Below are positions 2,008 to 34,439 of a DNA stretch of 42,091 nt, one piece after another. Origin of the DNA: a virus. The position numbers and the translations under genes were made by a program. The stretch spans positions 629-42,719 of IMG/VR virus record IMGVR_UViG_3300030419_003672; one strand, written 5' to 3'. Below the pieces are notes generated by a model that saw only the letters and a program-made list of their open reading frames with translations, was not told the DNA's origin and searched no databases. Numbering within the stretch: position 1 is the first letter of the stretch; every line of letters starts with the position of its first letter.

Positions 2008-2388
2008 TTATTCTGGATATATTGGAAGTGGCACTTCGTAATAAATGTCCAAACCGAGTGCTTTTGCCAAATGCCATTCTGCTTTGGCGCCCCTGCTATT
2101 CTCCCAATCAGACATCATATAAATGGCGGTGCATTCTTCACAAATCGCCACCATATCCCGCCGAAGTGCCGAACGCATAAATTCATGATCTTCATAATTG
2201 GTATCTGGAGAAAATGCCATTGGATCGCTCATAGGTTTCCCTTCATTCCGATCCAGTTTGGCGGGATTTACTACAGACCAACCATACTTCTCTAGAATTT
2301 TTGCTCGTTCGTCGAATGCTGGATAATTATAATTCTCATATCCACGCATTGGTCCTGCCACATAAATTGTTGGTTTTCTATTCATCAT
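2008..2388 (-). CDS. DUF4406-like protein (nucleoside 2-deoxyribosyltransferase-like fold)
   Basis: 126 aa. Contains PTIYVAGPMRGYENYNYPAFDE near the N-terminus, an NPAKLDRNEG segment, then RRDMVAI..CTAIYMMSDWENSRGAKAEWHLAKALGL. These are the hallmarks of DUF4406, related to nucleoside deoxyribosyltransferases. Three ATGs (2391, 2388, 2385) follow GGAG; 2388 is 7 nt away and is chosen with mild uncertainty. It overlaps the guaC stop. Beside GMP reductase it may belong to nucleotide salvage or modification (inference); substrate unknown. Confidence 0.8.
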   Translation of the reverse strand: MMNRKPTIYVAGPMRGYENYNYPAFDERAKILEKYGWSVVNPAKLDRNEGKPMSDPMAFSPDTNYEDHEFMRSALRRDMVAICEECTAIYMMSDWENSRGAKAEWHLAKALGLDIYYEVPLPIYPE

Positions 2389-3410
2389 CATGAATCTCCG
2401 AATACTGTATTTAACTGACGATTCACCTGTACAAAGGTAGTGCATTTAGGAAGTTGTTTAATATTTCTTGCGCCAGTATATGTACAGGCACTTCTAACTC
2501 CCCCCAAGATCTCATTGATTGTATCTTGCACATCGCCTTTGTATGGCACCTTCACTGTCTTTCCTTCAGATGCTCTGTAAGTCGCTACACCACCGCTATG
2601 TTTGTCCATTGCAGTTGCACTAGACATACCATAAAAAACCTTGTAGGACGCTCCAGAATCGTCTGTGACGCATTCTCCTGCACATTCTTTATGACCAGCG
2701 AGCATTCCCCCTAGCATAACGAAATCTGCTCCTGCACCGAACGCTTTTGCAACATCACCTGGCGACTGGCACCCTCCATCCGCCATGATATACCCGCCCA
2801 GTCCGTGTGCTGCATCCGCACATTCCACTACTGCTGAGAGTTGAGGATATCCTACTCCTGCTACTTTCCTCGTCGTACATACGCTGCCTGGGCCTATGCC
2901 AATTTTTATAATATCTGCTCCTGCTAACAAAAGTGCTTCCGTCATCTCCGCTGTTACTACGTTCCCTGCAATTATAATCTTCTCTGGCCATATTTCCTTG
3001 ACCTCCTTAACAAAGTCAACAAATTTCTGTGAATATCCGTTTGCAACATCAAGACAAAAGAAGTCATGTTCTAATGTAAATTGATTTTTCGAAAAAAGAA
3101 TTTTATAACTATCTTCTCTCATTCCAAATGTCAATGCCATGTTTTTAGTTTCTTCAATTGTAGCATCTACATTTTTTGTATGTTTACATAAACAAGTTAA
3201 CATATTATTGTGCGAAAGAACTTTTCCCATTTCTACTGTACCAATAGTATCCATGTTTGCAGCAGCAATGGGAATACCAGACCAAACTTTCCCATTCTTA
3301 AATGTAAAGGTTCTTTCTAGGTTAACTTCTTTTCTTGATGTTAGGACAGATCTCTTTGGTCGAATTAAAACATCAGAATAATCAAGTTTAATATCATTGA
3401 TTATATTCAT
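2388..3410 (-). CDS. guaC: GMP reductase (NADPH: GMP to IMP + NH3)
   Basis: 340 aa, full length for the family (about 345). A TIM barrel of the IMPDH/GMPR family with N-terminal [13 protein letters not shown], catalytic loop [11 protein letters not shown] (Cys178), and [53 protein letters not shown], all characteristic of GuaC rather than GuaB. No CBS domains are present, which also favours GMPR. GGAG lies 9 nt before the ATG at 3410. It overlaps the upstream gene by 17 nt and the DUF4406-like gene at its end. Role: cytosolic recycling of guanine nucleotides to the IMP pool, probably to rebalance purines during phage DNA synthesis (inference). Confidence 0.93.
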
Positions 3411-8199: not shown

Positions 8200-8652
8200 T
8201 TAAAGTTCCTTCTGTACCTTTTTCCAGTACTTGAGAGTGGCTTTCTTTTTATAGCCATTCGGTCCGCCATTGTGAATTCTTGCACGGTCTTCATCTGTGA
8301 CTGGGCGACCGATACGTTTCTCTGTTGCGTATCGTTGCCAGTATGCAAGAACGATTTTCTCTGCGTATTCCTTATTCGTGCAGTCTTCGTATGTATGATT
8401 CTTTCTCAGTGAAGGATTGAATTCGACTGCATCCTTCCAGTAAATCTCCCATATTTGATAAGGACCAATCGCGTTTCCATTATCCCCGACTGCATCTTCT
8501 TCGCAGTTCGATTCGACCTTACAGATTGCAGAGAGAAGATTCGAGGAAACTGTATTTGCCATTGTCACCATTGAGAGTGAGAGAATGACCAGAAGAATCA
8601 CCACCATTGTCAGAATGTCGAATGTAAAGTTGTTGTTTTCTTTGTTGTTCAT
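8200..8652 (-). CDS. Membrane-anchored lysozyme / transglycosylase-like endolysin
   Basis: 150 aa. A hydrophobic helix at residues about 12-31 is followed by SAICKVESNCEEDAVGDNGN..IGPYQI, with Glu47 in the position of the catalytic glutamate of SLT/lysozyme domains, then YW.DAVEFNP and a C-terminal RARIHNGGPNGYKKK. The HNGGP motif and paired cysteines recall invertebrate-type (destabilase) lysozymes. Acts on peptidoglycan in the periplasm; the N-terminal helix suggests a signal-anchor exported by Sec, as in SAR endolysins (inference). Overlaps the upstream gene as ATGA. Confidence 0.8.
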   Translation of the reverse strand: MNNKENNNFTFDILTMVVILLVILSLSMVTMANTVSSNLLSAICKVESNCEEDAVGDNGNAIGPYQIWEIYWKDAVEFNPSLRKNHTYEDCTNKEYAEKIVLAYWQRYATEKRIGRPVTDEDRARIHNGGPNGYKKKATLKYWKKVQKEL

Positions 8653-9784: not shown

Positions 9785-11176
9785 TCAGAATGGGCAGGGA
9801 ATTTCTTCGGCGATGACGGTGGGTTGCCATTGTCCCCAGAAGTCCTCATCCGAAGCGTATTGTTCGCCAGTGATGTGCCACTTCTTATTCAGTTTGTCCC
9901 ATTTGGCGCCACGATCCCTGACCATATTCTTGTCATTGAAGGATACAACCAAGTCGATTCGTGACGCTTCGCTAAAATTTACGGGGGCTTCCTCCTCTTC
10001 CACCTCGGAGGATGCGTCGGCATCGACCTTCGTGTAGAGATTCAGGAAACCTTCCTTCGTATCATCGTCGAAGCGAGAGATGGCCATGTTGATGGCGGTC
10101 ATCTTATCGTCGAAGATGGCGTATGCCTTCGTGATGTCCACCAGGCGACGAGTCGAGATAATCTCGTCAATCGCACCCTCGGCGAACGACTTGCGAATGA
10201 TCTCCGCCCACTTCACCAGATGGTCGGCGAAGTCGGCATCATCGACACCGACGGCGGTCATCGCCTTCTTGAGAATCTTCTTCTCGATGGAGCGAGAAGC
10301 GTACTCCTGCTCCAGAGTGATCGGAAAGCGGTCGAGGAATGCCTCGTTCATGACACCCGTACCGATGAATCGACCATCGTCGCTGCCCTTGCCCTTGGTG
10401 TTGGCAGTAGCGAGAACGGTGAAACCAGGCGCAGGCGTGACCCACTCGTTGATCTTCTTGAGATAGACACCCTTACCTTCCAGCACGGGCTGGAGGCACA
10501 TGATGTTGAACGATGCGAGATCGATCTCATCGAGCAGCAGAACGCCACCCTGGCGCATGGCGGAGACAACGGGGCCGTCCTGCCATACGGTGTTTCCATC
10601 GATGAGTCGGAATCCACCCAGCAGATCGTCTTCATCGGTCTGCTTCGTGATGTTGACGCGGAAACATTCCCGCTTCAACTTGGCACAGACCTGTTCGATC
10701 ATCGTGGTCTTGCCGTTACCCGACAGACCAGTGATGAACACAGGGTAGAAGATTTTCGCCTTGAGGATCTTCTCAACAGAGGAGAAGTGGCCCCAGGCAA
10801 CGTAAGTAGACAGGCGATCAGGGATGAGGGAGGCACGATCGCCACCCGTCATGCCCATGACCGACGCTGCGAGATTCACTGATGGGACGGAGGGAACCGT
10901 CTGCACCGAAGCCGAAACGGCCGCGGGAGCAATCGCGGCGGGCGCTGGTGCTGATTCAGTGATCTCTGCACCATCCACCTCAGGCACTGCATAGACGCCG
11001 CGGCTTACCTTGCGGCGGCTGTCCTGCGTGATCCAAGAAGGCGGACATGTGTAGATACCAGACTCCTCGCAGACCTCGATGAGATCCTGGCGAGAGTACT
11101 CGCCGCTGGTGCCGCACGCAGTTGCGAGGGCATCAACAAAACGAGTCTGGCGCTTGGAAAGTTCGTTGTAGTTCAT
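9785..11176 (-). CDS. MoxR/CobS-like AAA+ ATPase with DUF5710-like tail
   Basis: 463 aa; the ATG at 11176 has GGAG 6 nt upstream, and the longer frame to 11548 would overlap the divergent gene. N-terminal helical domain (1-66, shared with the gene at 9022), Pro/Ala linker (67-100), AAA+ core with Walker A GLSGNGKT (150-157), Walker B VLLLDEID (212-219) and sensor TVLATANTKGKG, then a C-terminal SFNDKNMVRDRGAKWDKLNKKWHI resembling DUF5710. Family: CobS/MoxR ATPases that remodel partners together with VWA proteins. The divergent VWA/HExxH gene is its likely partner. Annotated CobS in many T4-like phages, but no CobN or B12 pathway gene is here. G+C-richer than its surroundings. Confidence 0.87.
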   Translation of the reverse strand: MNYNELSKRQTRFVDALATACGTSGEYSRQDLIEVCEESGIYTCPPSWITQDSRRKVSRGVYAVPEVDGAEITESAPAPAAIAPAAVSASVQTVPSVPSVNLAASVMGMTGGDRASLIPDRLSTYVAWGHFSSVEKILKAKIFYPVFITGLSGNGKTTMIEQVCAKLKRECFRVNITKQTDEDDLLGGFRLIDGNTVWQDGPVVSAMRQGGVLLLDEIDLASFNIMCLQPVLEGKGVYLKKINEWVTPAPGFTVLATANTKGKGSDDGRFIGTGVMNEAFLDRFPITLEQEYASRSIEKKILKKAMTAVGVDDADFADHLVKWAEIIRKSFAEGAIDEIISTRRLVDITKAYAIFDDKMTAINMAISRFDDDTKEGFLNLYTKVDADASSEVEEEEAPVNFSEASRIDLVVSFNDKNMVRDRGAKWDKLNKKWHITGEQYASDEDFWGQWQPTVIAEEIPCPF

Positions 11177-11224
11177 TGGTTGCTCCATGAAAAAGGTCGT
11201 TCTCGTCCCCGCTGGGACATGGTA

Positions 11225-11233
11225 ATTGTACCA
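11225..11233 (-). promoter_or_regulatory. Extended -10 promoter TGGTACAAT for the AAA+ gene
   Basis: TGG-TACAAT on the minus strand about 50 bp before the start at 11176. The same TGGTACAAT occurs on the plus strand before the divergent gene, suggesting matched control. No clear -35 box. The remainder of 11234-11432 shows no gene on either strand. Confidence 0.5.
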
Positions 11234-11432
11234 TAAAAATGCCCCTCTGGGGGGATTATGTCCACAAAATGGTCGATATTTCTGATTTTGCTGAAAATTG
11301 ATATAAATCCTTGATTTTACTTGACTTACGGCACATTTTGTTGATAGCGCCCAGACCCCCAATTGAGACTGGTTCTCAATTGAGAAATAACGGTCAGAAT
11401 CCCATATAAACCCCCATCTGGCCCCATATTTG

Positions 11433-11446
11433 TGGTACAATATACT
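11433..11446 (+). promoter_or_regulatory. Extended -10 promoter for the VWA/HExxH gene
   Basis: TGGTACAAT (11433-11441) overlapping TATACT (11441-11446), directly followed by the ATG at 11449. No ribosome site lies between, so the transcript may be leaderless. Confidence 0.5.
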
Positions 11447-11448
11447 CG

Positions 11449-13686
11449 ATGAATGACCCAAAAACCAACGTAAAAACCGCTTCCAAGGACATCCTCGCTC
11501 GCCTGATGGCATCCGAGGATATTGCAGTCGAGCATCGTGCAGACGCACAGACCGCTTCGTTCAATACGCAGTCCCGCGTCCTGACTCTCCCGATCTGGCA
11601 GGACATGGATGACTCCCTGTACGATATGCTGGTCGGTCACGAAGTCGCCCATGCCCTCTGGACACCCACCGACGAGTGGGGCCAGGAGATGGGTCGATTC
11701 GGCGATCAGAACATCGGTCGATACCTGACGTTCGTCAACATCGTCGAGGATGCACGCATCGAACGCAAGATCAAGGCAAAGTTTCCTGGCATTCGTCGGG
11801 ATTTCTACGCTGCCTATCAGGATCTCGCCGCCCGCGATCTCTTCGAGATCGGCGACAAGAATCTTTCCGATCTTCCCCTGATCGACCGCTTGAATCTTCA
11901 ATTCAAGATCGGTTCATTCGTCGATGTACCCTTCTCTGCCGATGAGCAGAAGTGGATCGACGCCCTCGAAAATACGAACACGTTCGGCGATGTCTGCGAC
12001 GTTGCTGCGGAACTCTTCGAGGATCACGCTCAGAATGAACAGCAGCAGGAAGCCCCAGTCGAAAATGCAGACGAAGGCGATGCTGGTGTGCCCGATGGAG
12101 CAGACGGCGAAGAGTCTGACGAATCTGGTGCTGCCGCACCTTCGCCTGGTGAATCCTCCGAAAGTACTGGCGCTGGTGGATCTGATACTCCCACTGAGGA
12201 ATCGTCTGACGATGCCAACAGTGGCGCAGGTCAGTCCGAGATCGCTGGTGACGATGGTGCCGATTGCGGCGCATCGATGACCGACGATACTGATGACGGT
12301 TCTTCGGCGGATTCAATCGCTTCAAGTACCACCGATGGCGAGAATGCTGCTGGTGATCCTATGGACAGCGTAGGATCCACGCAAAATGCATTCGACCGTG
12401 CGGTTCGAAACCTGAACGATACAAGTGCCTCTGATCGAGAGTACTTTCCTCTCCCGAAGTCCAATCTCAAGAATACGGTTATCGATTTCACTCGATGCCA
12501 TACTGAGATTTCCGATTTCATCAACAGCGCCCCAAGCCGAGTAGATGCACTGGCATCTGCCCAGCGTCAACTGAAGACATTCGAGAACGAATCCAAGAAA
12601 ACCGTTAACATGATGGCACAGCAGTTCATGCGCCGCCAGAGTGCCGACGAACAACATCGTACCAGCATCTCGAAGACTGGTATTCTGGACATGAACAAAG
12701 CGATCTCATACAAGTGGAACGAGGATCTGTTCCTGCGTAACGAAGAGATCGCCGATGGTAAGAACCACGGCCTGGTTCTCTTCATCGATTGGTCTGGTAG
12801 CATGTGTGAGATCATGGAAGATACCATCAAGCAGATGCTTCAACTGGTTTTCTTCTGCCGCAAGGTTGGCATTCCGTTCGAAGTTTACTCGTTCACTAGC
12901 AACTATCGCGGTTATCCCAAGGGATGGGCTGAGATGACTGCTGATCAGCGGGACGAATGGCACGAAGCCAATCGTAGGTTCGATTCTGACTGGACGAATG
13001 AAGATTTCAATCTGGTCAACTATCTCTCCTCTCGCATGAACGCTCGCCAGATGAAAACCGCCCTGGCTCACATGATGTACCTCTGCAACAGCCTGAGCAA
13101 TGGTTACTGGGACGGTGGATTCGAAATGCCGAAAGGTCACGGTCTTGGATGCACTCCTCTCAATGAAGCGATCATCGCTGCTACGGAAATCGTTCCTGAA
13201 TTCCAAACCAGCAACAATCTCCAGATCGTGAACACGATTTTCCTCACGGACGGCGAATCATCAGGTCGCCTTCGTGCCAAGAAGTGGGAAGCAACTCCTT
13301 TCCTTCGTGACGAGAAGACCAAGAAGACATACGATGCCACCAACACCACTGCGGCACTGCTCTCGATGCTGAAAGATCGAACTGGTGCCAACACCGTGGG
13401 TATCTACCTGAACGCTGCACGCAGTCTTCGAAGTAACTACTACCACACTTACACCGAAACCCAGATCCTGTCCTACAAGAAGGACGGATTCGTTTCCACC
13501 ACCTCTGCTGGTTACACCGAGTACTTCGTCGTGAAAGCAGACAGGAAGGTCGAGAATGATTACCTCGACAACATCTCTTCTGACGCCTCTTACACTCGCA
13601 TTAAGAACGCATTCATCAAAGCCAGTTCCAGTCGAGTCAACTCCCGCGTCCTGCTCAACCGAGTGATCGACCTGATCGCCGCGTAA
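11449..13686 (+). CDS. VWA-domain protein with HExxH metallopeptidase motif (CobT-like)
   Basis: 745 aa. An N-terminal zinc-peptidase-like region contains VGHEVAHALW (HExxH at 64-68) followed by IVEDARIERKI, a possible third-ligand helix. An acidic Ser/Gly/Asp linker spans about 196-300. The C-terminal VWA domain has MIDAS DWSGS (447-451) and FLTDGESSG. This layout (acidic linker, C-terminal VWA) is that of CobT, and it faces a CobS/MoxR-like ATPase, so the two probably work as a metal-dependent remodelling complex. The HExxH adds a possible protease activity. Known in T4-like marine phages as a 'peptidase' or CobT-like protein; target unknown. G+C-rich; the stop is followed by a terminator. 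Confidence 0.87.
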   Translation: MNDPKTNVKTASKDILARLMASEDIAVEHRADAQTASFNTQSRVLTLPIWQDMDDSLYDMLVGHEVAHALWTPTDEWGQEMGRFGDQNIGRYLTFVNIVEDARIERKIKAKFPGIRRDFYAAYQDLAARDLFEIGDKNLSDLPLIDRLNLQFKIGSFVDVPFSADEQKWIDALENTNTFGDVCDVAAELFEDHAQNEQQQEAPVENADEGDAGVPDGADGEESDESGAAAPSPGESSESTGAGGSDTPTEESSDDANSGAGQSEIAGDDGADCGASMTDDTDDGSSADSIASSTTDGENAAGDPMDSVGSTQNAFDRAVRNLNDTSASDREYFPLPKSNLKNTVIDFTRCHTEISDFINSAPSRVDALASAQRQLKTFENESKKTVNMMAQQFMRRQSADEQHRTSISKTGILDMNKAISYKWNEDLFLRNEEIADGKNHGLVLFIDWSGSMCEIMEDTIKQMLQLVFFCRKVGIPFEVYSFTSNYRGYPKGWAEMTADQRDEWHEANRRFDSDWTNEDFNLVNYLSSRMNARQMKTALAHMMYLCNSLSNGYWDGGFEMPKGHGLGCTPLNEAIIAATEIVPEFQTSNNLQIVNTIFLTDGESSGRLRAKKWEATPFLRDEKTKKTYDATNTTAALLSMLKDRTGANTVGIYLNAARSLRSNYYHTYTETQILSYKKDGFVSTTSAGYTEYFVVKADRKVENDYLDNISSDASYTRIKNAFIKASSSRVNSRVLLNRVIDLIAA

Positions 13687-14510: not shown

Positions 14511-14660
14511 CTAATCTACCTTATATTCCCATAGTTCATTCAGTCTATTTCGTAGTTTGTTTAGTAATTTACTCCTACAACGAAACAGTTTACAAAAAGT
14601 ATCTCCGAATCCTTTACTCGCATGTATGCTTCGTCGAAAACGTCCTGGCTCAGTGTTCAT
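14511..14660 (-). CDS. Small basic protein, 49 aa
   Basis: MNTEPGRFRRSIHASKGFGD..., ending LNKLRNRLNELWEYKVD. ATG overlaps the stop of the PEP-CTERM-like gene as ATGA. Arg/Lys-rich, two cysteines, C-terminal helix. Last gene of the late operon before the terminator at 14461-14486. Function unknown. Confidence 0.55.
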   Translation of the reverse strand: MNTEPGRFRRSIHASKGFGDTFCKLFRCRSKLLNKLRNRLNELWEYKVD

Positions 14661-15367
14661 GGTCTTCTCTTTCTGTATCGAAACAATGAAAATGCAAAGA
14701 TGCCAAGAGTGCTAGTCTCTGGTACAATAAGTTCAACGTCATCATTCCAGTTCGTGTATCTAGGAGTAGAGTATATATTCCCATACGAATCGGGTGCATC
14801 ATATAAATTTGGCATAAATGTTGTTAGATCATATATGTCAAAAGCAGTAATCATAGAAAAGTTATCGTTATGAAAGAGAGTAGGATTTAGTAAAGTATCA
14901 TTATAATATACACTTCTCTTATCTGTGAGTATGTCAACGATAGAAAAAAACGAATCATCAGCAGGCCATTTTATATCACTACTTCTTCTTGGTGCAGGAT
15001 ATATGGCATATGAATCATTCATTATGCTTTCATCATCAGAGAGTATTATATTTTCATCCTCTGATTGTTCTTTCTTTGGCGGTGTTGCTTGTGTGGTAAG
15101 AGATGTGGCAGCATCCTTTACCTTATTCAAACTATTCATGTAGTCAGAGACTTTATCGATAAACTCCTTACCGAAGAGTGTAAGAATAACGATGACAAGA
15201 ATTCCTACGGTTACAAGTCTTTTCTCTAGATGTTTTCGTTTTGATTCGCATTCGGCGAGTGCATCTCTTGTCTCTTGCTCTCTCTGTTTCTGTTCATTCT
15301 TCAACTCATCAAGTACTTCATCGTAATCATCACAACGAGGGCATCCCTTCGTTGGTGCGTTACTCAT
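14657..15367 (-). CDS. Membrane protein with PEP-CTERM-like C-terminal sorting signal
   Basis: 236 aa. N-terminal CPRCDDYD (residues 9-16), a charged coiled coil (20-50), a membrane helix (about 51-66), a disordered acidic stretch, then a beta-rich segment. It ends VPETSTLGIFAFSLFRYRKR: a VPExSTLG box, a hydrophobic helix and an Arg/Lys cluster, the tripartite pattern of PEP-CTERM sorting signals handled by exosortases (canonical box is VPEP; here VPET). Starts one base after the upstream stop and is under a late promoter. Suggests host-envelope targeting; host exosortase is required (inference). May be a lysis or host-surface protein. Confidence 0.6.
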   Translation of the reverse strand: MSNAPTKGCPRCDDYDEVLDELKNEQKQREQETRDALAECESKRKHLEKRLVTVGILVIVILTLFGKEFIDKVSDYMNSLNKVKDAATSLTTQATPPKKEQSEDENIILSDDESIMNDSYAIYPAPRRSSDIKWPADDSFFSIVDILTDKRSVYYNDTLLNPTLFHNDNFSMITAFDIYDLTTFMPNLYDAPDSYGNIYSTPRYTNWNDDVELIVPETSTLGIFAFSLFRYRKRRP

Positions 15368-15676
15368 TTATTTCTCCTTTGTATTTCTTTCGGCTTCGTA
15401 TTGTGCCATGGCAATCATGCGTGACATCTCTTTACTATCTTCTATGTTTTGATACGATTCTCTTGTTAGAAACTTTGCTCTATCTTTTGCAATTGAGTAC
15501 ATACGATCCATGACCTTATCATGATCCTCTTCCATCTTTTGTATACGTTTCTTGTGTTCGATAACGTCCTTCTCAATTGAAGTGACTTTATGTGACCATC
15601 GCCACACAAATCCTATCAGTGCAAATATTCCAGTAGTCGATATCGTTACAGCGATATCCATCCAGTCAATTGTCAT
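15368..15676 (-). CDS. Small membrane protein with coiled coil, holin/spanin-like architecture
   Basis: 102 aa. A single membrane helix at about residues 8-25 (AVTISTTGIFALIGFVWRW) followed by a long charged coiled coil (VTSIEKDVIEHKKRIQKMEED...). This resembles XhlA-like holin accessory or inner-membrane spanin layouts. TATAAATA lies about 20 bp upstream and GGAGGG precedes the ATG. First gene of a three-gene late operon; lysis role is inference. Confidence 0.6.
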   Translation of the reverse strand: MTIDWMDIAVTISTTGIFALIGFVWRWSHKVTSIEKDVIEHKKRIQKMEEDHDKVMDRMYSIAKDRAKFLTRESYQNIEDSKEMSRMIAMAQYEAERNTKEK

Positions 15677-25914: not shown

Positions 25915-28236
25915 ATGTCAGTAGCAGTATTTACATTTGGAAGGTTCAATCCCCCCACAAATGGTCATGGGGTATTAGCAGATAAAATTAAATCTGTTGC
26001 AAGAAGATCTGGTGGGAAACCTTTTATTTTTACTGGTCATAGTAAAGATGCAAAAAAGAATCCACTCGACTATAAATCAAAAATAAAATATATGTCAAAA
26101 GCATTTCGTGGTGTGGATGTGGTAAACGATGCATCTATACGAACTATATTTGATGCTTTGAAGTATCTCGACAAGAAGAACTACGAAGAGGTGAAATTAG
26201 TCGTGGGTTCGGATAGGGTTCCTGAATTTAGAAAACTATTAAAAAAATACCTCAAGGACTACGGATTCACTGAGTTTGAAGTAGTTTCTGCTGGCGAAAG
26301 AGATCCCGATGCAGAGGGCGTCAAGGGAATGTCTGCATCAAAGATGAGAGCAGCGGTTGCACGAAACGATTATGATTCTTTTCTTCTAGGTTGTCCCAAA
26401 GGTCTTTCAAAGAAAGACTGCTTACAGATGTTCAATGATGTGAAAAAGGGTATGGGTGTAAGTGAATCTATTAATGAAGAGTTGTGGTTTAATTATGAGG
26501 AATTTGAACAATTCTGTGAAAGAACCATGAGTCTTGCTGCCAGAAAAAAGATGGCAAGAGTTGCGAGAAGAACAGCAAAGAAAAGAGCAAGAACTCGAAA
26601 GAGAAAAGAGAAGTTTAGAAAGACGGATGATAAACTAAAGACATTAGCAAAAAAACAGGCGAAGATGAAACTTCGTCAAAAGATGTTAGGTGACAAGCAT
26701 TGGGGTGATCTTTCTATCGGTGCAAGACAAAAGATTGATAATATGCTTCAGAAGAAAGCAAAGAAAATAGAAAAAATGTCTAAGAAACTATACCCAGCCG
26801 TCAAAAAACAAGAACGAGAAAGAATTCAAAATCTTAGAAATCCAGGACCATCTGATCAAAAAGAAGGAAAAGAACTTCTACGAGAACCAGAGATCTACGA
26901 CAGATTAGTATCACAGTTAAAAGCAAAAGGAAAAAGCGACGATGCTGCTCATGCTATTGCTACATCTCAACTACAAAAGCACGGAATTCTTAAAAAGGGT
27001 ACTAGAGAATTGACTGATAAAGGTAGAGAACGAAACTCAATGTCTGCCTCTGAAAGAGCAAAAGACAGAGCAGCCAAGAAGGATGGAAAATCTCCCGAAG
27101 ACTATGAATATAACAAGAAAACAAACATTGCAACTCAAAAGGAAGAACTAATGAAAGAGTATTCTGAAGAAAAACCACTCTTAAAGTGGATGGAAGTTTT
27201 TAGATCTGAACTCAAGAAGGGTGGTTCGTCTTACAAGAAGGTAGATCCAGTGGATGCTCTTAAACTATATTATAAGGGTGTTGATCCAAAAAAAGCAGCA
27301 GCCCAACTCAAAGAATCCGTTGAACTGGATGAAGGACTACCTTCATATAGTTATCCAACCTTCAAAGAAATACAATCAAAAGGCAAGAAACTTGGCGATT
27401 GGATGGGTAAATCCTACTATGAATATGATGGTAGTGTGTGGATGCTCAAGAATGGTAGAGCATCGAACCAAGGATCAGTTGCACAAGCAAAGAAGAAATT
27501 CAACAAATCTCTTCTCAAGAATCTAAATTTTGAATCCGTTGAAGTAGATGAAGCATGTTGGGATACACATGTACAAAAAGGAATGAAGAAAAAAGGCGGT
27601 AAGATGGTTCCGAATTGTGTTCCTAAAAGCGTTACAGATGCAGTTGAAGAAGATACTTTCAAGAAGAAAGCAGTTAGAGATGTGGAAGCAAAATTTAAAC
27701 CACAGGCTGACGCTCTAAAGAAAAAACTTGAAACAGAAAGAAAGAAACGAGATTCGATAAAAGTTATATCAAAGCATACTTCAGCAAGAGATGCTGCTCG
27801 TAAGAAAAAAGAAGAGGCTGATAAAAAATTAGCAGCGATAAGAGCGAAATTAGCAGCCGCCCGTGCTAATTCTATAAGGGGCAGAAGTCAAAATACGGAT
27901 AAACCTAGTGATGTAGAAGAAAATCATGCATCTTTGAAGGATCGTCGTGCTTATTTGAAAAAAACTGTTGCAGATAGAACTGCAAGAGTTCTTGCAAGAA
28001 GAGAAATGATCAAAAAAGGAAAAGCAAAAGTTGGTGATGGTAAAGATGTAGATCATAGGGATGGAAATCCTCAAAACAATTCGAATGGAAACCTTCGGAT
28101 GATGGATGTTAACACCAATAGAAGCAGAAACAATAACAAACAACACGAAGAACACGGCGCGGGAGATGAAGGTACAGACAAACTTCTTAAAAAATATCGT
28201 AAAGACACTCCGTACTCACAGGATAATAAAGGTTGA
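25915..28236 (+). CDS. Mosaic virion-internal candidate: nucleotidyltransferase head, SVELDE sites, HNH-like tail
   Basis: 773 aa. Residues 1-150 are a cytidylyltransferase/NMNAT-like domain: FGRFNPPTNGH (T/HxGH at 15-18), VGSDRVPEF and GMSASKMRAAV, the equivalent of the ISSTxxR motif. Then a long Arg/Lys helix region (AARKKMARVARRTAKKRARTRKRK), YDRLVSQLKAKGKSDDAAHAIA and MSASERAKDRAAK (modules seen in other phages), ESVELDE at 467, YYEYDGSVWML, ESVEVDE at 540, CWDTHVQKGMKKKGGKMVPNC, and a C-terminal HNH-like DVDHRDGNPQNNSNGNLRMM. LDE/VDE sites fit gp21-type processing. Likely packaged; catalytic roles of the ends unproven. Confidence 0.78.
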   Translation: MSVAVFTFGRFNPPTNGHGVLADKIKSVARRSGGKPFIFTGHSKDAKKNPLDYKSKIKYMSKAFRGVDVVNDASIRTIFDALKYLDKKNYEEVKLVVGSDRVPEFRKLLKKYLKDYGFTEFEVVSAGERDPDAEGVKGMSASKMRAAVARNDYDSFLLGCPKGLSKKDCLQMFNDVKKGMGVSESINEELWFNYEEFEQFCERTMSLAARKKMARVARRTAKKRARTRKRKEKFRKTDDKLKTLAKKQAKMKLRQKMLGDKHWGDLSIGARQKIDNMLQKKAKKIEKMSKKLYPAVKKQERERIQNLRNPGPSDQKEGKELLREPEIYDRLVSQLKAKGKSDDAAHAIATSQLQKHGILKKGTRELTDKGRERNSMSASERAKDRAAKKDGKSPEDYEYNKKTNIATQKEELMKEYSEEKPLLKWMEVFRSELKKGGSSYKKVDPVDALKLYYKGVDPKKAAAQLKESVELDEGLPSYSYPTFKEIQSKGKKLGDWMGKSYYEYDGSVWMLKNGRASNQGSVAQAKKKFNKSLLKNLNFESVEVDEACWDTHVQKGMKKKGGKMVPNCVPKSVTDAVEEDTFKKKAVRDVEAKFKPQADALKKKLETERKKRDSIKVISKHTSARDAARKKKEEADKKLAAIRAKLAAARANSIRGRSQNTDKPSDVEENHASLKDRRAYLKKTVADRTARVLARREMIKKGKAKVGDGKDVDHRDGNPQNNSNGNLRMMDVNTNRSRNNNKQHEEHGAGDEGTDKLLKKYRKDTPYSQDNKG
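27313..27555 (+). repeat. Two further SVELDE/SVEVDE repeats
   Basis: The copy at 27313-27333 is identical to those in the gene at 16683; the copy at 27532-27552 encodes SVEVDE with base changes. Each is followed by a Gly or Ala codon. Confidence 0.8.
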
Positions 28237-30892: not shown

Positions 30893-31777
30893 ATGAAAAG
30901 CCTAATACCAGCAATAATAGTCATATTAACCTCTATGGGATGCGAATCATTCCAAGAAACTAAGGGTATTCCTACAAATACTTCAAGTACCGTAGTAGAT
31001 TCCGTCCGTGAGCAAAAAGAGCAGTTTGAAGAGATCACAGACGCTTCTAGAGCGATACAGAGCAATTTAGATCTCATTGATAACTCCGCAAATTCGATTC
31101 TAAACGACATAGCGGTTGCTCCCAATCAAGACAGCCCAACACTTAATAAAATCGAAGATTCGGCTGAATTGATAAAAGAACATGTCGATGAAGCAGAAAA
31201 AGAATATATTCGTGTCGAAGAGGCTCTGGAGGATTTAGACCAAGCAAACAAAAGAGTTTCGGCAGCAGTTGGTCAAATAGAAAATCTAGAAGATCTCGTA
31301 AAGGAATATGAGCAGTCGGACAGAGAAATTCGAAAAGAGGCTTTAGAAAATCTACACAGTTATATCACCCTATTCTTTGTAATAGGATTTGGTATGCTCA
31401 TTGGTGGCGCATTCTTAACATTCTGGGTGAGTGGTAAACTCGGTGGAGTCGTACTCGCTATCGGTGTACTTACCGTTGGGTTTGCAGCAGCATCACAATA
31501 TTATTTGGAACAAATTGCTATTGTTGGTCTTGTTGTTTTGATTGTAGGATTCTTCGCAACTCTAGGAGTGGTCGCTTGGTTATTAGTTCAAGGAAAAAAC
31601 GACAAGAAAGCCGTGATGGAAATTGTCCACTTAATAGAAGAAATGAAAAATCATCTAACAAAAGAAGAACGAGGACGAATATTTGGTCAAGGTGGTACTG
31701 CATCTAAGTTAACTAGTTCTATGACAAAAGAAATTATTGCTAAGATAAAAATTAAAAATGGATTTAAAAAGATTTAA
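30893..31777 (+). CDS. Membrane protein with lipoprotein-like start, coiled coil and three C-terminal helices
   Basis: 294 aa. Signal-like MKSLIPAIIVILTSMGCESF with a lipobox-like Cys17, a long helical coiled coil (residues about 35-150, EEALEDLDQANKRVSAAVGQIENLEDL), then three hydrophobic helices (ITLFFVIGFGMLIGGAF, GGVVLAIGVLTVGFAA, IAIVGLVVLIVGFFATLGVVAWLL) and a charged tail. Could be a spanin- or holin-like envelope protein. Its end overlaps the convergent RuvC-like gene by 14 bp. Confidence 0.6.
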   Translation: MKSLIPAIIVILTSMGCESFQETKGIPTNTSSTVVDSVREQKEQFEEITDASRAIQSNLDLIDNSANSILNDIAVAPNQDSPTLNKIEDSAELIKEHVDEAEKEYIRVEEALEDLDQANKRVSAAVGQIENLEDLVKEYEQSDREIRKEALENLHSYITLFFVIGFGMLIGGAFLTFWVSGKLGGVVLAIGVLTVGFAAASQYYLEQIAIVGLVVLIVGFFATLGVVAWLLVQGKNDKKAVMEIVHLIEEMKNHLTKEERGRIFGQGGTASKLTSSMTKEIIAKIKIKNGFKKI

Positions 31778-32442: not shown

Positions 32443-33165
32443 CTATTCTACCCTTTTAATCGTTTTCCTTATCCAATTTAAATACTGTTTAACCTTTGTT
32501 GCTGAATTTTCATAAACCATCCCATCTGGATCTGTGGATAGTGTGCTTATTATTCCAACTAATTTAAATTCATTTCCAAATATAGAATAAACAGCACCAC
32601 CAGAATCACCAAACCATATGGTGTCCTTTAATGGTAAGAATTTTATATAATTTGGTTCCTCTATTAATGTTCCATAATAAAAGAATACTCCAACCTTACT
32701 GTATTTTTTAATATCTCTACTAAACCCCACAGTGATTAAAAACTTACCTTTATATAGAGTGTCATCTTCGGATACAAGAATTGCGGGAACAATTCCTTCA
32801 ACATCTTTATTTAATACAACTAAAGCGATATCATTCCATATGAGATGTTCATTATATTCTTCATGAATTATAATTTCTTTTAGTAGGTAATACTTGTTAG
32901 ATATTACAAAAAACGCTGGAGGATCATCAACAACATGACCAGCGGTAAGTACAACATTTTTTTCTATGAGAACACCTGATCCTATTAAAGAATTGTTAGT
33001 GTTTCTAAAACAACCAACCGCAGGAAAAGGATCTGAATTAGGTAAAATTTCTTGAAAGAAATTCTCTACTGCCGTAGAATTTTCTAATTGAGGAATATCT
33101 ACAGTTGTTTTACAAGCACATACACATGACAAAGATATGAGTAATGTGAATATTAACTTATACAT
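32443..33165 (-). CDS. Trypsin-like serine protease, exported (lipoprotein-like)
   Basis: 240 aa. MYKLIFTLLISLSCVCACKT is a signal peptide with Cys-rich end, compatible with a lipoprotein. Catalytic triad: His77 (LTAGHVV), Asp112 (NDIALVVL) and Ser188 (GDSGGAV), all in the S1 order. No PDZ domain, so not DegP-like. Upstream the -10-like TATAGT is 4 nt before the ATG without a ribosome site. It would act in the periplasm or on the cell surface; role could be processing of host envelope or phage proteins (inference). Confidence 0.85.
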   Translation of the reverse strand: MYKLIFTLLISLSCVCACKTTVDIPQLENSTAVENFFQEILPNSDPFPAVGCFRNTNNSLIGSGVLIEKNVVLTAGHVVDDPPAFFVISNKYYLLKEIIIHEEYNEHLIWNDIALVVLNKDVEGIVPAILVSEDDTLYKGKFLITVGFSRDIKKYSKVGVFFYYGTLIEEPNYIKFLPLKDTIWFGDSGGAVYSIFGNEFKLVGIISTLSTDPDGMVYENSATKVKQYLNWIRKTIKRVE

Positions 33166-33239: not shown

Positions 33240-33267
33240 AGGAGGTGATCCTATATTATTATAGGAT
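33240..33267 (-). promoter_or_regulatory. Porin 3' UTR with 16S-tail-like GGATCACCTCCT and hairpin
   Basis: Between the porin stop and its terminator: a perfect hairpin ATCCTATA-ATAA-TATAGGAT (33267 to 33248) and, directly after, GGATCACCTCCT (33251 to 33240), identical to the conserved 3' end of bacterial 16S rRNA. CACCTCCT is left single-stranded. A C-rich seed beside a terminator resembles a 3'-UTR-derived small RNA that could pair with Shine-Dalgarno sequences (inference). Confidence 0.45.
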
Positions 33268-34439
33268 TAAAATGCAACACTAAGTTGTGTTGTGAGTAGG
33301 TACTGTCCATCAGAATCACCAGTGTTCCAACCAGAACGACCAAGATCCCAACCAGCATCTACACCATCGAATGCATATCCAAGTGTTGTAGTCCAACGAA
33401 CATAATCATTGATACTAACATTTGCACCAACTTCAAGAATATTCAAATCATTGTCGGAAACACCAAGTTTACCGTTCTGATATTGAACAAATCCCTGAAG
33501 ATTATCGGTGCATTGATATGCAACCAATGCATTGAGGCCATAGTTCTTACTATAACCACCTGTTGCATAGTCAGCAGCGACCCATGAAACACCAAGATCC
33601 CAACCACCGTTTGTGTAGCCAAGATCTAAAGTATAAGTTCCATAGTCCTCTAATTCAGACTGATATGCATATGCAGCACCCGCATGGAATCCTGCACCAA
33701 AATCAAAATCTGCACGAACACTAACACCATAATCATCATTATCGATGAATGCGTTGTTAGAATCAAAACCATCATTATAAGATGCAGATAGATTTACGAA
33801 TCCAAAGTCTCTAGAAACTTCAAGACCCTGTGATCGTCCTTGACCGAAAGTAGTTGCAAGAACACTATATTCTCCTGCAACCTGATCTAGTGGTGAATCG
33901 GTATAACCATTATAAAAAGCGGTTACAAATTGACCTACTTGAAGATCAAAACCAGCACCAAGACCTAGTGTAAGATAAGCATCGACAAGTTCAAACTCGC
34001 CATTGTTATAATCACTAAATTCTCCACTCACATAGTATCCAACCTTATCTAGAATTTCTCCAGAAACTTCTAGACGGGCATATGGAATACTAAATTCATT
34101 ATTTTCAGAAACACCACCATCGTTGTTATATTGCCAACGAGTGATTGCAAAACCATGTACGTTTAGTGTAATAGGTTTATCGTCTGACAACATCATTGTG
34201 CGTGCATTCGCATCAGCCATGACACTCTGTACCATAGCCTTTACTTCTTCGCTGCGACGAGTTTCTAACCAAGTTGGTTTTCTTTCTGAATCTAGTTGAG
34301 CAATTCGTGCTTCTGCTGCGTCCAATCTTTCCTGAAGATCTTCATATGAAGGTTCTCCAGCAACAGAAGGAACAGCAAATGCTGCTACTACAATAGCAGC
34401 AATAATTGCTCCATACATTGTCCATTTCTTTTTACTCAT
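33267..34439 (-). CDS. Outer-membrane beta-barrel porin
   Basis: 390 aa. Signal peptide (MSKKKWTMYGAIIAAIVVAA..., cleavage near VAG-EP), a short coiled coil (YEDLQERLDAAEARIAQLDSE, residues about 32-52), a linker WLETRRSEEVKAMVQSVMAD, then about 16 beta strands (for example ITRWQYNNDGG, YARLEVSGEIL, YYVSGEFSDYN) and a terminal VAF ending in Phe, the BAM signal. Resembles OprP/porin O-P type proteins of planctomycete-like bacteria (recollection). AAGGAG precedes the ATG. A full-length porin is unusual in a phage: may alter nutrient uptake or superinfection. Likely host-derived. Confidence 0.8.
   Translation of the reverse strand: MSKKKWTMYGAIIAAIVVAAFAVPSVAGEPSYEDLQERLDAAEARIAQLDSERKPTWLETRRSEEVKAMVQSVMADANARTMMLSDDKPITLNVHGFAITRWQYNNDGGVSENNEFSIPYARLEVSGEILDKVGYYVSGEFSDYNNGEFELVDAYLTLGLGAGFDLQVGQFVTAFYNGYTDSPLDQVAGEYSVLATTFGQGRSQGLEVSRDFGFVNLSASYNDGFDSNNAFIDNDDYGVSVRADFDFGAGFHAGAAYAYQSELEDYGTYTLDLGYTNGGWDLGVSWVAADYATGGYSKNYGLNALVAYQCTDNLQGFVQYQNGKLGVSDNDLNILEVGANVSINDYVRWTTTLGYAFDGVDAGWDLGRSGWNTGDSDGQYLLTTQLSVAF

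Follow-up and report, generated by a model that had tools for sequence, protein, structure and literature searches.

Background

To our knowledge, exosortase sorting is known only as a house-keeping system of bacteria and archaea, with a chemistry that is poorly understood. The PEP-CTERM/exosortase system of Gram-negative bacteria (EpsH, TIGR02595, PF07589) is the one that the locus described here resembles most, as both have a Pro motif, a hydrophobic helix, and a basic cluster at the extreme C-terminus. The Pro-Glu-Pro triplet is near-invariant in PEP-CTERM signals, and the canonical proteins that bear them have a cleaved signal peptide and, apart from one small exception, lack any additional helix (PMC1569441). 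The periplasmic face is the presumed site of exosortase action (PMC1569441; PMC11980579). The MYXO-CTERM (TIGR03901/TIGR03382) and GlyGly-CTERM signals share the tripartite layout, and the MYXO-CTERM signature motif requires an invariant Cys (PMC11980579). The LPXTG/sortase system also follows a C-terminal sorting logic, but it uses another enzyme class and another motif in Gram-positive hosts. Among phage proteins, the target resembles Rz/Rz1 two-component spanins and class II holins, which are likewise small envelope proteins whose genes adjoin or overlap one another in the vicinity of tail and terminase genes. The open-access literature yielded no paper on PEP-CTERM proteins of phages. We put the probability at roughly 0.6 that the gene described here encodes a phage inner-membrane protein with a C-terminal PEP-CTERM-like sorting tail.

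The target gene and its C-terminal tail

We analyzed a window of 42,091 nucleotides, which covers most of a 42.7-kb IMG/VR virus record. The record is a fragment of a T4-like phage and encodes UvsX, a DnaB-like helicase, a primase, the end of a DNA polymerase, and RNR. The initial annotation had reported a Pro motif, a hydrophobic helix, and RYRKRR at the C-terminus of one protein of this window, and this layout was confirmed by coordinates and sequence. The 236-aa ORF (Table 1) has its ATG at 15365-15367 and its stop at 14657-14659 and is preceded by the Shine-Dalgarno sequence AAGGAG. The ATG abuts the TAA of an upstream 102-aa gene, referred to below as the partner gene. The C-terminus of the target reads VPETSTLGIFAFSLFRYRKRRP, that is, VPETSTLGIFAFSLF followed by RYRKRRP.

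Table 1. Features of the target gene and its partner (positions are those of the window; A5 and A7 are the short-form and long-form alignments).
Feature	Position	Strand	Basis
Partner gene, 102 aa; N-terminal membrane helix and coiled coil, weakly Rz-like/holin-like; stop abuts target start	15368..15676	-	60-73% identity in 4 relatives, each directly followed by a target homologue
Target gene, 236-aa membrane protein with PEP-CTERM-like C-terminal tail; long form of the 41-member phage family	14657..15367	-	Homologues, alignment A7, Shine-Dalgarno sequence, start/stop junction
CPRC motif, residues 9-12, putative metal-binding CxxC	15332..15343	-	Invariant columns in A5 and A7
Long helix/coiled coil, residues 13-49, predicted cytoplasmic (positive-inside rule)	15221..15331	-	AF2 helix 15-93, pLDDT 80-93 here; family charge bias
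Membrane helix, uncleaved-looking signal anchor, residues 51-66, LVTVGILVIVILTLFG, then conserved GK[ED]..D	15170..15217	-	Hydropathy; GKEFxDK in A7, AIFGKE in A5
Acidic/Pro-rich variable linker, residues 94-214, predicted disordered	14726..15088	-	AF2 pLDDT about 40; poorly conserved among homologues
VPETST motif, residues 215-220; homologue counterpart VP[EAG]xx / [VIL]PAPG[AT]L	14708..14725	-	P216 invariant in 13 long forms (A7); P-x-P invariant in 17 short forms (A5)
Short hydrophobic helix LGIFAFSLF, residues 221-229	14681..14707	-	AF2 tail helix 220-233; short-form equivalent helix 92-104
Basic terminal cluster RYRKRRP, residues 230-236	14660..14680	-	3-6 K/R among last 8 residues in 41/41 members

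Taken alone, the tail of the window protein gave no profile support. Neither the whole protein nor the isolated tail matched TIGR02595 or PF07589 in NCBIfam and Pfam, and a six-frame search of the whole record with TIGR02595 returned no candidate. Additionally, we built a tail HMM from a small training set of eight PEP-CTERM tails, all from outside the family. The window tail scored 0.4 bits against this model, which is background, as 582 of 3,320 control C-termini scored equal or higher. The window fragment contains only one PEP-CTERM-like tail.

A family of 41 phage proteins

As a direct query, the window protein found no homologue in viral contigs or in 50,697 phage genomes. The family was reached via the partner gene, for which four relatives were found in IMG/VR; the next gene was a target homologue in all four. 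Alignment-based scans then raised the family to 41 distinct members, including the window protein (40 further members in IMG/VR). A Vibrio-phage match to the partner (E 0.2) was set aside, as the next gene there encodes a multi-helix protein without such a tail. GenBank phages (50,697 records) and 84,980 genomes of bacteria and archaea (GTDB) yielded no member of the target family. The feature had been called rare in phages, and the GenBank result agrees with this for the target family, which is what the search covered.

The members come from several phage types, with a GC content of 37-62%. The gene is carried by T4-like phages (the window phage, L001-L004, and L012-L014), by contigs with a phrog_38 terminase (L041, L043, and L024) or a phrog_449 head-tail adaptor (L060), and by contigs bearing a giant 2,600-aa ORF. 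Two forms were distinguished, a short form of about 105-125 aa and a long form of about 225-260 aa. All 41 members have the same layout, which comprises a CxxC, a cytoplasmic-type coiled coil, one membrane helix, a linker, and the tripartite C-terminal tail. In both forms, the CxxC is accompanied by a third Cys in nearly all members, a coiled-coil-like helix, and a membrane helix ending in G-K-[ED]. The invariant Cys residues are Cys9, Cys12, and Cys40 in the long form and Cys9, Cys12, and Cys27 in the short form. The linker measures about 25-30 aa in the short form and 120-150 aa in the long form, where the insert is poorly conserved and predicted to be disordered. The AF2 models were of low confidence, and only their helix boundaries were used. 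They placed helices at 15-93 and 220-233 of the window protein, separated by disorder (mean pLDDT 56), and at 10-59, 61-84, and 92-104 of a short form (mean pLDDT 67.5).

The net charge of the family averages +4.2 over the 15 aa preceding the membrane helix and -1.8 over the 25 aa that follow. By the positive-inside rule, this bias predicts a cytoplasmic CxxC-coil and a periplasmic linker. With such a topology, the basic end of the tail would be cytoplasmic, and the Pro motif would lie at the periplasmic face.

Tail conservation and HMM evidence

In every member, the tail combines P-x-P or P-E-x with a hydrophobic stretch of about 9-13 residues and with 3-6 K/R among the final eight positions, and it is kept in all 41 members while the preceding linker diverges from about 25 to 150 aa. 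A tail pattern, composed after the tails had been seen, matched all 31 members then known, one further PEP-CTERM-like phage protein, and none of about 2,590 other ORF C-termini from the same contigs. With the tail HMM, which was trained without the family, no more than three of the 3,320 controls outranked any of 29 of the 41 family tails; the two top-ranking controls are themselves PEP-CTERM-like phage proteins.

The TIGR02595 model has a curated cut-off of 16 bits. L002 passed it in both search modes (17.1 bits by hmmscan and 19.8 bits by six-frame search), and L003 passed in the six-frame search (18.6 bits) and fell below the cut-off by hmmscan (13.9 bits). Ten further members gave sub-threshold matches of 9.9-15.6 bits. 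These matches coincide exactly in position with the family tails. The family profiles also detected unrelated PEP-CTERM-like proteins on the same contigs (E about 0.001-0.009), most plausibly through the tail. In the closest family pairs, pN was lower than pS in the tail, and the tail is thus constrained between close homologues; in most close pairs, it was not more constrained than the body.

Judged from sequence, the observation of a sorting-type tail in the window is correct and beyond chance, and it owes this solely to the homologues. The single tail is not significant by HMM, and we place it above chance because it is conserved across the homologues. The exosortase-substrate layout proposed by the initial annotation accordingly stands for the family, in which every homologue conserves it and L002 passes TIGR02595 in both modes, and lacks HMM support in the window copy. 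That annotation would have given up its proposal if the HMM score was at background and the tail was missing from the homologues. The first was found for the window copy, whereas all homologues keep the tail.

Comparison with described sorting signals

The family differs from PEP-CTERM proteins in several respects. It is phage-encoded, its motif is P-x-P or P-E-x and never P-E-P (P-E-T in the window), and it contains a conserved cytoplasmic-type CxxC-coil domain. Instead of a cleavable signal peptide, it has a predicted signal anchor, a membrane helix located before the tail (residues 51-66 in the window). We do not claim strict canonical PEP-CTERM membership because the full PEP is absent and the architecture is not that of a signal peptide with no other helix. 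L043 passed the MYXO-CTERM model TIGR03382 (19.0 bits against a cut-off of 15.85). Nevertheless, MYXO-CTERM was rejected, as the window tail has no Cys and the family motif has no conserved Cys. The family tail also differs from GlyGly-CTERM in having no GlyGly signature.

Other PEP-CTERM-like proteins in these phages

G001, a 123-kb contig, carries a long-form target as well as a gene for a 136-aa protein. This protein ends in VPAPGAIALMGIAGISATRRRR and scored 19.1 bits against TIGR02595 in the six-frame search and 15.6 bits by hmmscan. Its homologue in L072 scored 21.1 and 19.4 bits, respectively. Another homologue is found in L080 and a similar protein in L086, and both of these contigs also carry a target homologue. 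More than one PEP-CTERM-like protein per contig was found in G001, G017, L080, and L086.

The 55.6-kb L067 contig, whose portal-, terminase-, and tail-like ORFs were called by eye without HMM, encodes a divergent long-form target, and the gene immediately after it encodes a protein with a signal peptide and the C-terminal sequence VPAPSVVALIGIGGLIVRTRRR (L067:4189-4845; TIGR02595 19.8 bits six-frame, 15.7 bits hmmscan). A second signal-peptide protein, convergent to the first and on the minus strand from 4904, ends in VPAPGALALLGLAGIVGRRRR and scored 17.7 bits in the six-frame search and 14.1 bits by hmmscan. The body of the first protein resembles an LPXTG-anchored surface-protein domain in OR846807.1, an unverified record labelled as a Listeria phage.

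Most family members agree in tail length with these other PEP-CTERM-like proteins. Because textbook tails occur on unrelated proteins of related contigs, the phages of this group appear to carry ordinary exosortase cargo besides the target family. Our preferred reading of the target tail is a PEP-CTERM-like sorting signal borne by the phage, because of the layout in 41/41 members, the HMM passes of L002 and L003, and the textbook tails on unrelated proteins of the relatives' contigs. That it would function like a PEP-CTERM signal is well supported by the same comparison of sequences.

The L072, L080, and L086 proteins named above form, together with one in L061, a second protein group of 136-145 aa, with an N-terminus around MIE, no basic N-region, and textbook PEP-CTERM tails (L061:6033-6443(-), L072:3769-4182, L080:1434-1853, and L086:14682-15119). 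The L061, L072, and L080 proteins are clear homologues, and the L086 protein is merely similar.

Gene neighbourhood

A partner homologue lies near 13 of the 41 targets, mostly overlapping or abutting. The window partner weakly matched the Rz-like spanin phrog_739 (E 0.0024) and the holin PF16082 (E 0.0058). Its homologue in L016, which precedes the terminase on its own, matched phrog_739 at E 3.1e-4. These Rz-like matches may reflect the helix plus coil composition only, and the charge pattern indicates that the partner coil may be cytoplasmic. Gene order in L041, which has a T7-type terminase, is ORF, target, partner, and terminase large subunit. L033 has a Destabilase-type lysozyme ORF that overlaps the beginning of the target ORF, and L002 carries the genes for a porin, the partner, the target, and a trypsin-like protease in direct succession. 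From the Rz-like partner, and from the terminase, tail genes, and lysozyme encoded nearby in relatives, we tentatively assign the target a late function in the envelope or in lysis, at somewhat less than even odds.

The window also encodes an outer-membrane porin at 33267-34439(-) (Porin_O_P, PF07396, E 1e-8), the N-terminus of which resembles a signal peptide. The L002 porin (1810-2976), directly upstream of the partner/target pair, is 53% identical to it. A trypsin-like protease with a lipoprotein-type N-terminus is encoded beside the window porin at 32443-33165(-) and directly downstream of the L002 target at L002:3821-4609. Porin and protease form an apparent set of envelope-remodelling genes. 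Destabilase genes (i-type lysozyme, PF05497) were found at 8200-8652(-) of the window and in L033 (5375-6001) and L007 (6352-6804).

Alternative explanations

The alternative that survives best is an ordinary two-helix lysis membrane protein of the class II holin, antiholin, or pinholin type. The tail would then be a second short TM helix with a basic cytoplasmic cap, and its PEP-CTERM likeness would be due to convergence. The short form is as small as such a protein (105-125 aa) and has two hydrophobic segments, a predicted N-in/C-in topology, and a basic C-terminus. Moreover, the target lies near the terminase large subunit or tail/head genes in L041, L043, L024, L040, and L060, the L033 lysozyme ORF overlaps it, and the partner is weakly Rz/holin-like. 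However, the second helix of the predicted topology has just 9-13 residues, has a conserved Pro motif at its start, and gives scores in models of sorting signals, and the conserved CxxC-coil is not a holin hallmark. The same tail type is also found on unrelated signal-peptide proteins in a related phage, which a holin fold cannot explain. We consider a holin-type protein unlikely.

It is still less probable that the family signal is real and only the window tail, a VPETST copy with a 9-residue hydrophobic core, is decayed or due to chance and has lost its function. Its HMM score at background and its unusually short core would fit such a loss, but the tripartite layout, the terminal position, and the K/R cluster are intact, and no acidic residues follow the motif. 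In addition, sister long forms of the PE[ST] type exist, and one of them, L003 (VPESST), passed TIGR02595 in the six-frame search.

The tail could also be a bait, with which a helix-tethered protein would keep the host exosortase occupied or trapped and thereby block the sorting of host surface proteins during infection. An uncleaved-looking anchor combined with an exosortase-type tail is unusual for true cargo, and the short form has no more than about 25-30 aa between helix and tail. Related phages also carry normal-looking cargo and thus seem to use the system rather than block it, and we regard a bait as very improbable.

The target differs from Rz/Rz1 spanins in its sorting-type tail, and the N-terminal lipobox of Rz1-type o-spanins is absent from the sequences of the target and its homologues. 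A u-spanin, with a helix at one end and a surface anchor at the other, was rejected, as the short-form linker is too short to span the periplasm.

Proposed mechanism

For the reading as an inner-membrane protein with a PEP-CTERM-like sorting tail, we regard it as quite likely that the tail is a genuine sorting-type signal. The odds are somewhat better than even that it would be read by a host exosortase. The first helix would insert as a signal anchor (N-in/C-out), and the linker would sit in the periplasm. On re-entry of the tail into the membrane, its Pro motif would lie at the periplasmic face, and there a host transpeptidase of the exosortase family would recognise and cut the tail. The processed protein would stay tethered to the inner membrane, because its first helix is probably uncleaved, and its C-terminus would be released or joined to the exosortase acceptor. 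The initial annotation had proposed anchoring in the host envelope late in infection, and the uncleaved-looking membrane anchor argues for inner-membrane tethering rather than for the outer envelope. The target and its Rz-like partner would have a late role, by which the host envelope is remodelled or opened.

A tag shared by forty related viral proteins suggests that phages may exploit the surface-sorting machinery of their hosts. A broader proposal, speculative and unlikely to hold in full, is that several unrelated phage groups use the host exosortase. Some would encode their own cargo, namely PEP-CTERM surface proteins. In all members found, the inner-membrane protein, once its tail is processed, would physically couple the inner membrane to host surface-sorting and lead to exosortase-dependent envelope remodelling or rupture, distinct from holins and spanins. 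A tail-bearing, widespread phage family would show viruses exploiting exosortase sorting, and its short forms (about 105-125 aa) would offer very small substrates for biochemistry. The tail would also give a host clue for many uncultured phages.

Host and additional observations

The 28 phage records searched contained no exosortase. The GTDB genomes, scanned with the phage porin (a single scan) and with the target family, yielded no bacterial relatives; no host was therefore identified from them, and there was no sign of the family being bacterial or a prophage of those genomes. The Phycisphaera and Singulisphaera plasmids searched had no PEP-CTERM match. A planctomycete host is our guess from the tail style P-A-P-G-A ... 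RRRR.

Several other genes were recorded in the window. The phage protein at 30893-31777(+), with a counterpart at L004:19431-20231, has a lipoprotein-type N-terminus, a coiled coil, and predicted membrane helices. A CobS-like ATPase (phrog_249) at 9785-11548(-) and a large peptidase-annotated protein (phrog_459) at 11449-13686(+) are encoded by overlapping divergent ORFs. An IMP dehydrogenase/GMP reductase-like dehydrogenase gene (phrog_9582) is located at 2388-3410(-). Finally, a 773-aa protein at 25915-28236(+) has a cytidylyltransferase-like domain and a C-terminal HNH-like stretch and is encoded near proteins with repeated 'MKSFK..' leaders.
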